From positions 186,001 to 250,000 of the forward strand of contig OW569377.1 of assembly GCA_937625935.1 (NCBI GenBank): a DNA stretch of 64,000 nucleotides, given 5' to 3'. Shown one piece after another: positions 34,444-47,526 of the stretch (its first letter is position 1; each line of letters starts with the position of its first letter). The notes below the pieces were generated by a model that saw only the letters and a list, made by a program, of their open reading frames with translations, searched no databases and was not told the origin of the DNA. The stretch is from Tetramitus jugosus. Its lineage: Eukaryota; Heterolobosea; Eutetramitea; Acrasida; Vahlkampfiidae. Both the position numbers and the translations under genes were made by a program.

Positions 34444-34967
34444 TCAAGATATGTTAACAGTTGAATATCTGCAAAGGACCAGAGACTTCTTGTTGCTCTT
34501 TAGACGTACTCCTTTCCTTTGTCCTTCACAACAGCATTGATAAACCCCTTGTGCAGTGCCTTGATGCATGCAAGTCTTGTCCTTTGAACTTGTGAAGAGG
34601 CGACGCATCACCTCCGCACATCTCCTCTTAGTATTCTCTACGAACTGCTTAGCTTTCGTCTTGGGGATATCTTTCTTGGTTCCACTCTTTTTGAGCCATT
34701 TGGCAACTTGGTTCACTGCTTGCGTCTCCACACCTAACATACCTAACATGTCTTGTTTGCCAGTCATTCATTGTACGCCTACCTTTGTACCACTGTTGAT
34801 TATCAAACCAGATGTCGACACACTGTGACTTGTGCAGTCCCATTGAGCTCAGTTTCGCAGCAACCTCCTTTGCTAGCAAAATCCTAGCCATCCTTGGGAG
34901 CGAGTAGTTAAGAGACAATGGAGACCCATCTCTTGCTCAAAATTGCACTTAGGACATGTGCCATTTA
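34444..34967 (-). mobile_element. Degraded non-LTR retroelement tail, copy c
   Basis: On the minus strand this copy shows CPKCNFEQEMGLHCLL, a C-x2-C-x8-H finger as at the end of non-LTR polymerases. It continues with VDIWFDNQQWYKG and, after frameshifts, GMLGVETQAVNQVAKWLKK and FVENTKRRCAEVMRRLF. These match the tail of the element at 46475 (INIWFDNVVWKDG, GMMGVENEAVEQVTKGL, FVNRVKRRCVDTLHRLF). Frame breaks show it is dead. Its 5' side abuts the 3' end of copy b. Confidence 0.75.
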
Positions 34968-34970
34968 TTT

Positions 34971-35290
34971 TACATACAACCATTTCGGTTGCTTTCTTTA
35001 TTGTCTGCTTATTCACAACATGCTGATCGAAGAACGTAGGCGCCGGTTAGTTACCAGTTGGCAGGCAATGACGCCCGAAGAGCGTCATTGCTGTTGATTA
35101 CTTCGTTGTAGTGAACAGGTGGTGGAGAGTATAACAGACATCTCCTATTGACACTGTTCACCAACGATTTGGCTTTCTTTTGAGCCACACACTTCACGGC
35201 CGGCTTCCTCACATTCCACCAGTAAGTGGTCGTCTCTGGCGCGCTCGCGCAGTGAGCACACATGACATCCATCGATGGCTAGTACAAGTC
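34971..35290 (-). mobile_element. Degraded non-LTR retroelement tail, copy b
   Basis: Minus-strand remnants read CAHCASAPETTT, with HLLVECEEAGREV in a shifted frame, then KKAKSLVNSVNRRC, matching the element tail at 47.3 kb. The 3' part keeps a hairpin around a TTCG loop (35065-35091) and, at 34977-34990, the terminal CAACCGAAATGGTTG palindrome also found before the poly-A of the 46.5-kb copy. After it comes only an A-rich trace, not a full poly-A. Confidence 0.7.
35066..35090 (-). repeat. Retroelement 3'-UTR hairpin with UUCG loop
   Basis: Read on the minus strand, CAATGACGCTC pairs with GGGCGTCATTG around a TTCG loop, with one G-T pair. The same ATGACGC stem occurs in the tails of the two elements at 46.3 and 47.4 kb. 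Confidence 0.6.
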
Positions 35291-35360
35291 ACGCAGCGCA
35301 GTCTTTGTGTGGAGGATAATACTTCTAACTTGGTGGTAGAACCACAATTCACTTCTTTCT

Positions 35361-35545
35361 AGGCCGAAAGGACAATGTTCATCAGCCTATCCAATTTAGC
35401 TTTCATCTCTTCTACGAGTTTCTTTCTGGCTATAATGGCAGCGTCACACTCCACCAACAGATGTAAAATGCTCTCCGGTGCAGCACCACAGTTTTAAAAC
35501 TTTTCATCTAAACCGGCATTGTCCAATTTCCTCATATCGCCCAAA
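35361..35545 (-). mobile_element. Degraded non-LTR retroelement tail, copy a
   Basis: On the minus strand NCGAAPESILHLLVECDAA fits the same C-x8-H-x4-C finger and is followed by ARKKLVEEMKAKLDRLM up to a stop at 35363-35361. A stop precedes the Cys pair. This is the copy nearest the tRNA-Leu gene, with its 5' edge about 30-50 bp from the mature tRNA start. Confidence 0.6.
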
Positions 35546-35576: not shown

Positions 35577-35680
35577 GGCGGAATGGCCGAGAGGTCTAAG
35601 GCGACACGTTTAGGAATACACTCAGGTTGAGTCAAAATCCGTGTTCCGAAAGGGCGTGGGTTCGAACCCCACTTCCGTCA
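35577..35680 (+). tRNA. tRNA-Leu(UAG) with intron
   Basis: The acceptor stem GGCGGAA pairs with TTCCGTC (one G-U), with discriminator A at 35680. The D arm is GCC..GGC. The anticodon stem ACACG pairs with CGTGT around the loop TTTAGG, with anticodon TAG at 35611-35613. About 24 nt follow position 37 as an intron. A long variable arm (class II) precedes the T arm GTGGG-TTCGAAC-CCCAC. A T-run follows within 15 bp and should end pol III transcription. Leu is supported by the anticodon, the class II arm and A73. Confidence 0.93.
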
Positions 35681-44989: not shown

Positions 44990-45074
44990 AGGACATAGTG
45001 TGAATCGAACACACGACCATAGGATGATGTTGCATTATTTGCAATCCCATGCTCTACCGCTGAGCTATATGTCC
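44990..45074 (-). tRNA. tRNA-Cys(GCA) with intron
   Basis: On the minus strand acceptor GGACATA pairs with TATGTCC, with discriminator U (position 44990), the usual identity base of tRNA-Cys. The D arm is GCTC..GAGC. The anticodon stem TGGGA pairs with TCCTA, with anticodon GCA (complement of 45040-45042). About 13 nt of intron follow position 37. The T arm is GTGTG-TTCGATT-CACAC. A T-run lies directly downstream (44983-44989). Retroelements lie in its 5' flank. Confidence 0.94.
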
Positions 45075-45100
45075 TTCATATTTCTCCTCCTAAAAACTGT

Positions 45101-45116
45101 AAATTTGTAATTTCCG
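45101..45116. repeat. Left target-site duplication of retroelement 1
   Basis: AAATTTGTAATTTCCG here recurs at 46446-46461 directly after the element's A-run. It lies 27-42 bp upstream of the mature tRNA-Cys 5' end. Confidence 0.9.
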
Positions 45117-45145
45117 GAAAAAAAACGCAGAAAAAACGGAATCAC

Positions 45146-46312
45146 ATGTCTGGTGATTCAACAAAATTGGTGAAGGAATACGGCAACAGCCGTTATGCAG
45201 TGTGGACCACTGCACGGAAAGGCTCTGGGCCAAGTGACAGAGAGGTCGTCATTACTGGCAACGGTAATGGTGTCTCTCAGTCATCTCTGGCAAGAAAGAT
45301 AGGAGAGGAGTTTGGTGACTGGCTCAACCGAGTCCAAGTCATCAAGAGGATAGGCCAGCAACGCTTTGTTGCATGGGTGACGGTCAAGGGTGACCGCATC
45401 TATGAGTTTGTTGAGTTCTTCAACAAAGAGAGGAGGACTGGCAACAGCACTGCTGCACCCAAGCGCAGTGTTGATTGCACAAGAAAGGTGGTCGTCCATG
45501 GCATGAAGAACATGTCAGTGGACGACATCAAGAAGCTGCTGGGTCCTGAAAAGGTTGCCAGTGTGCTCAAGAAGCGTGACACTGCATTCGTGGTCATGGG
45601 TGATGAAACCTATGCGCGAGCAGTGCTCAGTGGAGAGAACAAGGTAAAGGCCACGGTCACTCGATACGTCGAGAGACCACATGATCCTCTCAAGGCTGTC
45701 AACAAGAGGTTGACCAAGATGTACGAGGAGCTGCTGACGGTGGTTGACGGACTGCGTCGACAGGTCACAGAACTCACCAAGGAATTAGGAAAGACAAAGG
45801 GTCAAGGGGGTAACAAACCGGTACCAATGCCGGAACAAGAAGTTGCCCAAGCCACTGCTAGGATGGAGACTATTCCTGAGCTAGTGGAGGCAGAAGAACA
45901 GAGGACTGTAGCAACACCACTGCCATCAGTGCCTGTTGTACAGCTCAGTGCTGAGAATCGGCAAATTCTGGAGCAAGTGAATGCCACTTCTCCAGTTTTC
46001 GCCAGAGTGAAAAAGGAAATTGCTGCATTGGCGCTGGCTGCTGCACGCAAAAGGTATGGTTTGACTGAGGACGAACCAGTCATTGTGGATGTGGATGATG
46101 ACTCCGAAAAGGAGATTCAGAGTCCACAACTCAATGACAACAAGAAAAGGAGTGCTAGGGTCACACTGGGTGATCTGATGAGCAACAAGGCCCAAAACAA
46201 GAAAACAACAACAGATGGCTCTGTGTCCATCGACGGTCCTACTACAAGGTTACGCTCTTTGATGAAGGGCATCAACCAAAACACTCTCCAGAGTGATTCT
46301 TCCAACCTGTAG
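45146..46312 (+). CDS. ORF1-like retroelement protein, 388 aa
   Basis: The ATG lies 29 bp inside the element. I recognise no domain with certainty. The first ~185 residues form two similar-sized, charged, possibly RNA-binding units (VIKRIGQQRFVAWVTVKGDR and RKVVVHGMKNMSVDDIKKLL with VLKKRDTAFVVMGDETYARA), which read like RRM-type strands and helices. A likely coiled coil follows (KMYEELLTVVDGLRRQVTEL, about 191-215), then a Gln/Pro/Glu linker and a basic, polar C-terminus. Coiled coil plus RRM-like fold is the layout of LINE ORF1 proteins. The intact frame and GC-richer codon use than its neighbours suggest recent arrival. Confidence 0.75.
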   Translation: MSGDSTKLVKEYGNSRYAVWTTARKGSGPSDREVVITGNGNGVSQSSLARKIGEEFGDWLNRVQVIKRIGQQRFVAWVTVKGDRIYEFVEFFNKERRTGNSTAAPKRSVDCTRKVVVHGMKNMSVDDIKKLLGPEKVASVLKKRDTAFVVMGDETYARAVLSGENKVKATVTRYVERPHDPLKAVNKRLTKMYEELLTVVDGLRRQVTELTKELGKTKGQGGNKPVPMPEQEVAQATARMETIPELVEAEEQRTVATPLPSVPVVQLSAENRQILEQVNATSPVFARVKKEIAALALAAARKRYGLTEDEPVIVDVDDDSEKEIQSPQLNDNKKRSARVTLGDLMSNKAQNKKTTTDGSVSIDGPTTRLRSLMKGINQNTLQSDSSNL

Positions 46313-46341
46313 ATGCACCGTCGGGGACAACAAGAGAAGAA

Positions 46342-46432
46342 GAGTGAATGACGCCCTACGGGTCGTCACTCACAAAACAAGTCAATAAATGAGCAATCGT
46401 GTGCTTGCTGCGCAAGCACACATGGTTGTATG
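46342..46432 (+). repeat. Retroelement 1 3'-UTR hairpins
   Basis: Two palindromes follow the ORF: GTGAATGACGCCC / GGGTCGTCACTCAC around a short loop near 46345-46372, and TGTGCTTG / CAAGCACACA around CTGCG near 46400-46422. The first shares the ATGACGC stem with the 47.4-kb and 35.1-kb copies. They may be recognition structures for the reverse transcriptase. Confidence 0.6.
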
Positions 46433-46445
46433 GAAAAAAAAAAAA

Positions 46446-46461
46446 AAATTTGTAATTTCCG
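46446..46461. repeat. Right target-site duplication of retroelement 1
   Basis: This is an exact second copy of 45101-45116; its first three A bases merge with the poly-A tail. Its last three bases (CCG) are also the first three of the next duplication. Confidence 0.9.
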
Positions 46462-46474
46462 ATACGGCGAAAAT
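46459..46474. repeat. Left target-site duplication of retroelement 2
   Basis: CCGATACGGCGAAAAT is repeated exactly at 47511-47526, directly after the second A-run. Confidence 0.92.
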
Positions 46475-46476
46475 CA

Positions 46477-47370
46477 CGATATGTGCCATCAGTTATCCTC
46501 AAAAGGCTCTACCTTGGTGGTATTACAAACAGGGATCAATTGGTCCTGGACAACAAGCTCAAAAGTCTGAAGGACATCAGAATTGAATTCCCGGGGTGCA
46601 AGATCGGGACAAGATCTCATGAGATGCTGAAAATCATGGTGTCACAAATGAACGGTTGTGAGTGTCAATCACAAAGGGAGGGTCCCTCCAGCAGTAACGC
46701 AGAATCCCTCATGATGGGGGACTCCCGTATCGAGAGCAGAGAGCAGCTACAGTCAATGATGGATCAACAAAGGACCGAAAGAATCTCGGGAATGGGGCTC
46801 TACTGGCTGCAAGCTGATGCAATACGAAGCGGAGCTGACTTCAGCTTTCTGAAGTACCCACACAAGATCAATAGGCAAGTGGAGTGGTTCTATGCTCAAG
46901 TGCGTAGCGGTACTCTTCACACAAAAGAGACAAAGCGCTGTCTATATGGCAAGGATGAAGTGATGGAAAGATGTGAGCGATGTCTCAAAGAGCCAGAGAC
47001 GATACAACACTGTCTCATACGATGTCCAAGGGCCATCGTGCGCCGAAGAAGACTGGCATTGTCAGTAGGTAAAGACCTTGACAAGCTGGGTATTCACCAT
47101 AAACAGCAAATCAATATATGGTTTGATAATGTTGTGTGGAAGGATGGTAAAATCTCTGTGAGAGAAAATCGTAAGACAAGCAAGGAGTTCCTATCTGGTA
47201 TGATGGGGGTTGAAAATGAAGCAGTGGAACAAGTAACAAAAGGTTTGAGGATGAACGGTGTGAAGAAGGTCATGGCGGAAAAGAAAGCGAAATCATTCGT
47301 GAACAGGGTGAAGAGGAGGTGCGTCGACACCCTTCATCGCCTATTCATCTCCCACAAGGAAGACACATAA
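46477..47370 (+). pseudogene. C-terminal end of a non-LTR polymerase ORF (5' truncated)
   Basis: About 296 codons stay open to the stop at 47370. The zf-RVT finger CERCLKEPETIQHCLIRC (C-x2-C-x8-H-x4-C) is typical of the region behind the reverse transcriptase. It is followed by a long basic helical tail (RRRRLALSVGKDLDKLGIH, NIWFDNVVWKDG, FVNRVKRRCVDTLHRLF). The reverse transcriptase and endonuclease domains are missing. The frame is undamaged, so the insertion is probably recent. Confidence 0.85.
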
Positions 47371-47443
47371 CAATGACGCTCTACGAGCGTCATTGTGAGA
47401 AATGAAAAGTAACGGAGGAGATAACGCTCTTCGAGCGTTATCC
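47370..47443 (+). repeat. Retroelement 2 3'-UTR hairpins
   Basis: The palindromes are ACAATGACGCTC-TAC-GAGCGTCATTGT (47371-47397, 12-bp stem) and GATAACGCT-CTTCG-AGCGTTATC (47418-47441, 9-bp stem). A shorter CAACC-GAAA-TGGTTG stem-loop lies directly before the tail. Confidence 0.75.
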
Positions 47444-47510
47444 AGTGTAAATAGTCAGAAAATAAAATCGGAGCAACCGAAATGGTTGTATTAAAAAAAA
47501 AAAAAAAAAA

Positions 47511-47526
47511 CCGATACGGCGAAAAT
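47511..47526. repeat. Right target-site duplication of retroelement 2
   Basis: This is an exact repeat of 46459-46474, following the poly-A. Host sequence resumes after it. Confidence 0.92.

Follow-up and report, generated by a model that had tools for sequence, protein, structure and literature searches.

The closest described parallel to the retrotransposons reported here is TRE5-A of Dictyostelium. According to the parts of PMC5391098 and PMC5911963 that deal with it, TRE5-A is oriented opposite to its target gene, with insertion sites 47 ± 3 bp (tRNA genes) or 35–39 bp (5S rRNA genes) upstream, and it has a derivative, TRE5-A.2, with only the first open reading frame (ORF1). The same parts state that TRE5-A ORF1 binds TBP, Brf1, and Bdp1, and that a broken B box abolishes targeting. 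Here we describe a stretch of 64,000 nucleotides from Tetramitus jugosus (contig OW569377.1, positions 186,001–250,000; hereinafter the window), in which two long interspersed nuclear elements (LINEs), designated E1 and E2, lie upstream of a tRNA-Cys gene. A scan of the genome (26.3 Mb, 56 contigs) indicates that a lineage of two-ORF LINEs with an apurinic/apyrimidinic endonuclease (APE) very probably integrates by target-primed reverse transcription (TPRT) upstream of genes transcribed by RNA polymerase III (pol III), namely tRNA genes and dispersed 5S genes, and nearly always points away from the gene.

Several other elements are known to insert upstream of tRNA genes. The relevant sections of PMC5006619 place Polysphondylium NLTR-B about 50 bp and D. 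purpureum NLTR-A 2–6 bp upstream, both with RNase H downstream of the reverse transcriptase. Ty3 and DGLT-A are long terminal repeat (LTR) retrotransposons with an integrase; their insertions lie about 15 bp before the mature tRNA and, for DGLT-A, can take either orientation (excerpts of PMC5911963 and PMC5006619). Targeting of tRNA genes by TREs has been termed unique to dictyostelids, in which tRNA targeting arose independently at least six times (excerpts of PMC5006619). Among the papers listed in searches of the open-licence full texts of PubMed Central, none was a report on elements targeted to pol III genes in Heterolobosea, and the excerpts of PMC5911963 mention neither Naegleria nor Heterolobosea.

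Results

Two LINE insertions upstream of tRNA-Cys

The tRNA-Cys gene of the window is read as Ala(tgc) by ARAGORN without introns and as Cys(gca) when introns are allowed. E1 and E2 lie upstream of it, both divergent from the gene (Table 1), in agreement with the first-pass annotation of this DNA, which had reported two poly-A retroelements there in the same orientation. Each is a LINE insertion flanked by an exact 16-bp target-site duplication (TSD) positioned at its polyA end. Measured from the tRNA, the TSD of E1 occupies −27 to −42 and, once E1 is removed, that of E2 occupies −40 to −55, the same offsets as those given in that annotation. With both elements removed, the two target stretches overlap in CCG.

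The two insertions belong to different families. E1 is of class B, its 3’ end carrying GG before the polyA, and E2 is of class A, with TTA at the corresponding place. The window pair covers both of the registers described below, with E1 starting at −27 and E2 at −40. Upstream of the start of E2, all eight other copies inspected run on; because they extend further upstream, E2 is the 5’-truncated 3’ end of an autonomous LINE.

Table 1. Positions in the window of the two insertions, their target gene, and the second tRNA gene with its LINE remnants
Feature	Position	Strand	Evidence
tRNA-Cys(GCA), 13-nt anticodon-loop intron, target gene	44990..45074	−	Rfam tRNA 60.5 bits; ARAGORN with introns allowed
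E1 TSD, left copy, 16 bp, AAATTTGTAATTTCCG, −27 to −42 from tRNA	45101..45116	+	exact repeat of 46446–46461
E1, full-length ORF1-only LINE partner, class B, 3’ end TTGTATGG-polyA	45117..46445	+	
E1 ORF1, 388 codons	45146..46312	+	
E1 TSD, right copy, AAATTTGTAATTTCCG	46446..46461	+	sequence read directly
E2 TSD, left copy, 16 bp, CCGATACGGCGAAAAT	46459..46474	+	exact repeat of 47511–47526
E2, 5’-truncated class A autonomous LINE, 3’ end TTGTATTA-polyA	46475..47510	+	
Open remainder of E2 ORF2 C-terminal part, zf-RVT-like region	46483..47370	+	
E2 TSD, right copy, CCGATACGGCGAAAAT	47511..47526	+	sequence read directly
tRNA-Leu(TAG), 12-nt intron, sole other tRNA found in the window	35577..35680	+	
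Decayed LINE ORF2 pieces, upstream side of tRNA-Leu(TAG), divergent	34524..35517	−	

LINE sequences lie upstream of pol III genes

The tRNA and 5S genes ranked highest by Rfam models served as the gene set, and 350 bp on each side of 92 of them (45 of the 47 5S genes and 47 of the 53 nuclear tRNA genes listed) was searched with LINE proteins. Ten tRNA rows on contigs C54 and C56, taken as organellar, were dropped. One tRNA (C23:91520, L062) was included with knowledge of its element, and five 5S genes came from element loci; all stand in the same score lists. LINE coding remnants are present in 44 of the 92 upstream flanks (17/45 for 5S, 27/47 for tRNA) and in one of the 92 downstream flanks (Fisher p 4e-15), in support of the pol III-gene targeting that the first-pass annotation had suggested. 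Forty-two of the 44 upstream remnants point away from the gene (p 1e-10). With four extra query proteins, the counts become 49/92 upstream and 2/92 downstream, with 47 of the 49 divergent. No upstream match starts less than 30 bp from any of the 92 genes with either query set.

The same arrangement is seen when the elements are taken as the starting point. Among 20 E1-type copies, chosen as the top ones by similarity alone after the window and L004 copies had been dropped, and read over 250 bp of 5’ flank, 17 have a divergent pol III gene at the 5’ side (15 tRNA genes of nine isotypes and two 5S genes). The remaining three are members of arrays and abut the polyA of another LINE. Of 16 ORF2 copies read at their 5’ region, 12 have a divergent tRNA gene, two abut another LINE, and two, L159 and L148, could be assigned to neither group. 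Eleven of these 12 tRNAs were called by ARAGORN and that on C27 by eye, being cut by the end of the stretch; at C20:70964, C37, C27, and C29 the junction itself is outside the stretch read, and the copies on C23 and C18 were picked because a tRNA was already known there. The 3’ part of E2 has at least 45 matches, and those listed come to 43 without two reversed ones of 27 bases; in 24 of the 43, the 6 kb on the 5’ side include a known divergent pol III gene, and the same distance on the 3’ side, taken as a control, includes a pol III gene in 4 of the 43. The tRNA isotypes involved are Cys, Arg, Pro, Ser, Tyr, Leu, Thr, Asn, Met, Ala, Glu, Lys, Ile, Val, and Asp.

Two registers relative to the target gene

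The TSDs locate each insertion to about 1 base, with an uncertainty of up to 3 bases added by the polyA. The register was taken as the start of the TSD, in bp before the first base of the tRNA or 5S gene. Class A elements, defined by a 3’ end of TTGTATTA or TTGTATTTA before the polyA, start at −39 to −43 in 13 of 14 tRNA cases (39, 40, 40, 41 in eight cases, 43, 43, and 72). Class B elements, defined by a 3’ end of TTGTATGG-polyA, start at −27 to −31 in all 22 tRNA cases. The two sets of starts do not overlap (Mann-Whitney p 5e-7), and their spread is very small, with standard deviations of 1.0 for class A (without the −72 case, L056) and 1.2 for class B. The first-pass annotation had proposed that targeting would appear as a sharp peak 25–60 bp upstream in one orientation, with copies gathered at tRNA genes; in the samples read, both peaks fall in that range, and the 17 of 20 E1-type copies beside a divergent pol III gene point the same way. 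What that annotation did not anticipate is that 5S genes are targeted too, that there are two registers tied to the 3’ end of the element, and that each register has an ORF1-only partner.

At 5S genes (n = 5), class A starts at −34, −35, and −37 and class B at −23 and −24, which is 4–7 bp closer than at tRNA genes. As the first base of the 5S gene is the transcription start, shorter registers are as expected if the distance is counted from the start site or from TFIIIB. The length of the tRNA gene, which ranges from 71 to 108 nt owing to introns and long variable arms, does not shift the register significantly (slope −0.05 bp/nt, p 0.12 for class B; −0.06, p 0.50 for class A). Because of this, the B box is not the ruler, and the ruler is near the 5’ end of the gene. 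TSDs are 11–19 bp long, mostly 13–17 bp.

No strong sequence motif was found around the nick. The class A TSD at C34 consists of AGGTG of the host plus GAAAACGCAG from the 5’ end of an older E1; the same distance was kept over a different sequence. It follows from the same locus that a later insertion can wedge between the gene and an older element, so that arrays grow on the gene side. In the window, E1 would accordingly have inserted after E2. Similar AACGC/AACGAAG words occur in the class A TSDs at L023, L024, L049, and L052.

Element families and their proteins

E1 has at least 54 matches in the genome. Among the best 40 of the 176 candidates scored, 33 start within 8 bases of the E1 5’ end, and the 39 other than E1 itself are 92–98% identical to it. 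E1 ORF1 is intact in 16 of the 20 copies fetched, and its ratio of nonsynonymous to synonymous substitution rates is about 0.3 (18 intact ORFs). A Pfam scan of E1 ORF1 found no family. The predicted structure has two domains resembling RNA recognition motifs (RRMs; residues ~30–178) and a long helix (residues 181–218), with a mean pLDDT of 60.3 and values of ~70–88 across most of residues 10–180, and its best matches are RRM proteins. The predicted tandem RRM-like domains would fit binding to the RNA of the element.

The matches of the E2 3’ part, at least 45 in the genome, were counted from the best 40 of 111 candidates scored. A near full-length class A copy is present at ~C23:91640–96870. 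It contains ORF1, with broken frames there, and ORF2, which encodes an APE-like endonuclease and a reverse transcriptase with the motifs QGDSLSP and YIDD. In the class A copy on C34, ORF2 is open across 1293 codons, and Pfam assigns to it RVT_1 (PF00078, 5e-26), the endonuclease domain PF03372 (1.3e-08), and a sub-threshold zf-RVT (18.4 bits over the whole C34 ORF2, and 15.8 bits for the E2 remainder, both under the cut-off of 27.5). For P0121, Pfam gives PF03372 (5.4e-09) and PF14529 (1.7e-06). The best solved relatives of the reverse transcriptase are LINE-1 ORF2p and then R2. A protein search with a 426-residue C-terminal piece of class A ORF2 returned one short protein at 41% identity. With an AP-like endonuclease, a non-LTR reverse transcriptase, TSDs, polyA, and 5’ truncation, the elements are APE-type non-LTR retrotransposons.

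Class A also has an ORF1-only element, E3 (L033; 419 codons), which ends in TTA and has its TSD at −41. E1 and E3 each have the same 3’ end and the same register as one ORF2 class; therefore, there are two classes, each made up of an autonomous LINE and a partner. Each class seems to move its ORF1-only partner as well, E1 being moved by class B and E3 by class A. The autonomous side of class B is represented by the element at L050, with a GG tail, a TSD at −28, and a distinct ORF2 end. Its relatives had been predicted beforehand to end in TTGTATGG-polyA, and all 11 tails read, from 150 genome matches, do so (ten were new, and one, on C6, was known before the prediction). The TSDs of two class B ORF2 elements that are full-length lie at −31 (C10, tRNA-Ser) and about −29 to −33 (C35, tRNA-Leu).

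Other features of the window and the genome

The decayed ORF2 pieces beside tRNA-Leu(TAG) share up to 83% identity with the end of class B ORF2 and up to 48% with class A (tblastn). Elsewhere in the window, no LINE sequence was found with the query proteins used at E 1e-3. Anticodon-loop introns of 12–24 nt occur in tRNA genes for Leu-TAG, Cys, Glu-TTC, and Thr-CGT (the window tRNAs and L012, L014, L162, and L166). The 5S genes listed, the best 47 of 772 candidates scored, are scattered over many contigs and do not form a single tandem array. C54 and C56 have identical tRNA positions, are organelle-like, and are apparently one molecule assembled twice.

At L148, a class B LINE with a TSD beginning GCCCCGTTTA lies upstream of a segment (L148:34–160; C16:364533–364660, + strand) that has A-box-like and B-box-like words, a terminal stem, and a T13 run. 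A second copy (C16:355016–355153) is 82% identical and has divergent ORF2 fragments just upstream. The segment has no Rfam match at E 1, and its folding is no better than that of shuffled sequence. It is a candidate for an unannotated pol III RNA, which we take to be perhaps vault-like.

The window also encodes a CHD helicase, which over 601 residues is 69% identical to that of Willaertia magna and 67–68% identical to those of Naegleria. Two further proteins are 78–79% identical to it, and two fish-labelled proteins, at 52 and 44%, fall between these in score rank. Taken on its own, this protein would probably place the host among heteroloboseans close to, yet outside, Willaertia and Naegleria.

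Discussion

In behaviour, the elements of T. jugosus match TRE5-A, so that the parallel drawn in the first-pass annotation was apt as regards orientation, distances, 5S targets, and an ORF1-only derivative. Going by the parts of the TRE5-A literature cited above, the two systems share two ORFs, an ORF2 with APE, reverse transcriptase, and a zinc-finger-like region, divergent insertion, closer targeting of 5S than of tRNA genes, and an ORF1-only form. TRE5 elements are set at about 44–54 bp upstream, whereas the TSDs here start at the two registers given above and reach about 15 bp farther, with class B closer to the gene than TRE5. Unlike TRE5-A, they reside in a heterolobosean host as two classes about 11.5 bp apart, each with an ORF1-only partner, and many of their 5S targets are dispersed chromosomal genes. 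What is new relative to TRE5-A is another supergroup, two registers, and two ORF1-only partners; the targeting itself is of a kind already known.

Like NLTR-A and NLTR-B, the elements are non-LTR and lie upstream of tRNA genes, but the Pfam scan of the whole class A ORF2 gave only RVT_1, the endonuclease domain, and a weak zf-RVT. Targeting upstream of pol III genes is also shared with yeast Ty3, which acts via TFIIIB, and with dictyostelid DGLT-A. HAL1-type elements are LINE derivatives that keep ORF1 and are without ORF2. Unlike these, E1 has a full-length ORF1 in most copies read and a fixed pol III register.

TPRT by an APE-type LINE would account for the polyA, the TSDs, and the truncation. 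In a plausible sequence of events, a protein–RNA particle containing ORF1p and/or ORF2p would dock on promoter-bound TFIIIB, and the endonuclease would nick first at the TSD edge nearest the gene, which lies about 41 bp before the tRNA for class A and about 29 bp before it for class B. The element RNA would be copied from this nick, and the second nick would follow about 15 bp farther out. Given the spacing of about one DNA turn between the registers, the two classes would cut the same face. By analogy with TRE5-A, ORF1 is a candidate for the ruler. A fuller proposal is that the two LINE lineages share one promoter platform, at registers about one helical turn apart (29 and 41 bp; 4–7 bp less at 5S), that each register is determined by an ORF1/ORF2 set that recognizes the 3’ end of its own RNA (GG or TTA ahead of the polyA), and that each is exploited by an ORF1-only parasite; we regard the chances for and against this proposal as evenly balanced.

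Several observations weigh against targeting as the general rule. No LINE remnant is present beside 48 of the 92 pol III genes with the smaller query set, two of the 44 upstream remnants are reversed (L075 and L113), and LINE pieces lie downstream of 5S genes at L099 and L081; the pieces at these four loci may be off-target insertions or may belong to an undetected second gene. The expectation that E2 3’ ends would lie near tRNA genes was borne out for the 24 copies mentioned above and not for the other 19 of the 43, for which the 6 kb on the 5’ side hold no known divergent pol III gene, in a gene list that is incomplete and with the 5’ ends of most of the 19 outside the sequence read. One of the four copies in the 3’ control (C42) has no such gene on the 5’ side. 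At L159 (C46:125856–126356), no pol III gene was found at the expected 5’ end of the ORF2 copy. At L129, about 5 bp lie between the start of E1 and the end predicted for a tRNA-Thr, and no clean TSD is present, which may reflect a later deletion or another insertion mode. In the class A outlier at −72 (L056), a long T tract separates the TSD from the gene. As a separate observation, unexplained coding-like sequence lies at L159 where the 5’ end of the ORF2 copy would be expected.

The distribution might instead arise without recognition of the pol III machinery, if the endonuclease preferred a certain sequence or if the DNA upstream of tRNA and 5S genes were open and nucleosome-free, with selection clearing the remaining insertions. 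Such an account would draw on the slight T/A preference directly before the nick (at most 0.61 bit per position) and on upstream DNA that appears AT-rich, but it is very unlikely in view of the spread of ~1 bp, the two separate class-specific peaks within the same flanks, and the single orientation. Nor does it suit the absence of upstream matches within 30 bp of the gene, the near absence of downstream remnants, or the class A insertion at C34, for which the cut was made at an unchanged distance in DNA contributed by the 5’ end of an older insertion. Duplication of tRNA-plus-LINE cassettes, or elements carrying a tRNA or 5S gene along, can be credited even less: tRNA and 5S genes are multi-copy and dispersed 5S genes could be retrocopies, but the TSDs read vary between loci, many tRNA isotypes are affected, and the gene was present first because the left TSD sits between gene and element.

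If the pol III machinery is recognized, the docking partner might be pol III itself, as for the Ty1 integrase, or TFIIIC or chromatin, in place of TFIIIB. As pol III is present wherever TFIIIB acts, position data alone cannot separate the two, and we consider this option unlikely. Against it, gene length, and hence the distance of the B box, has no significant effect, and tRNA and 5S genes have in common the TFIIIB geometry from the start site and not the positions of the TFIIIC boxes. In addition, Ty1 insertions spread over ~750 bp to 1 kb according to excerpts of PMC5006619 and PMC5911963, compared with ~1 bp here. A different question is whether the likeness to TRE5-A reflects descent, vertical or by transfer between amoebae, such that the elements are true members of the TRE clade. 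Their common architecture, orientation, tRNA and 5S distances, and ORF1-only derivative would agree with descent, but a search of class A ORF2 (1274 residues) against 5.8 billion proteins, in which shared 5-residue words are required, gave only four matches at 22–25% identity; convergence is easy because dictyostelids evolved tRNA targeting at least six times (excerpts of PMC5006619). Descent is accordingly judged improbable, and insertion by TPRT upstream of pol III genes, with TFIIIB as the probable platform, is the reading that we adopt.

Insertion in front of tRNA and 5S genes offers a harmless site in a compact genome, and elements of this type are known mainly from slime moulds. A TRE5-like heterolobosean system with two registers indicates that LINEs of compact genomes have repeatedly found a safe haven at pol III promoters, in deeply separated branches of eukaryotes. 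The presence of two classes and their partners in one genome amounts to a natural swap experiment, and comparing ORF1 and ORF2 of both classes should reveal which protein sets the promoter distance and which one recognizes the 3’ end of the RNA. A further reason for interest in site-directed LINEs is their use as tools that deliver DNA to safe sites. If the two-register proposal is true, pol III targeting by LINEs would have arisen independently in Discoba, and the insertion arrays would chart the positions of pol III genes, among them genes without annotation, such as the C16 candidate.

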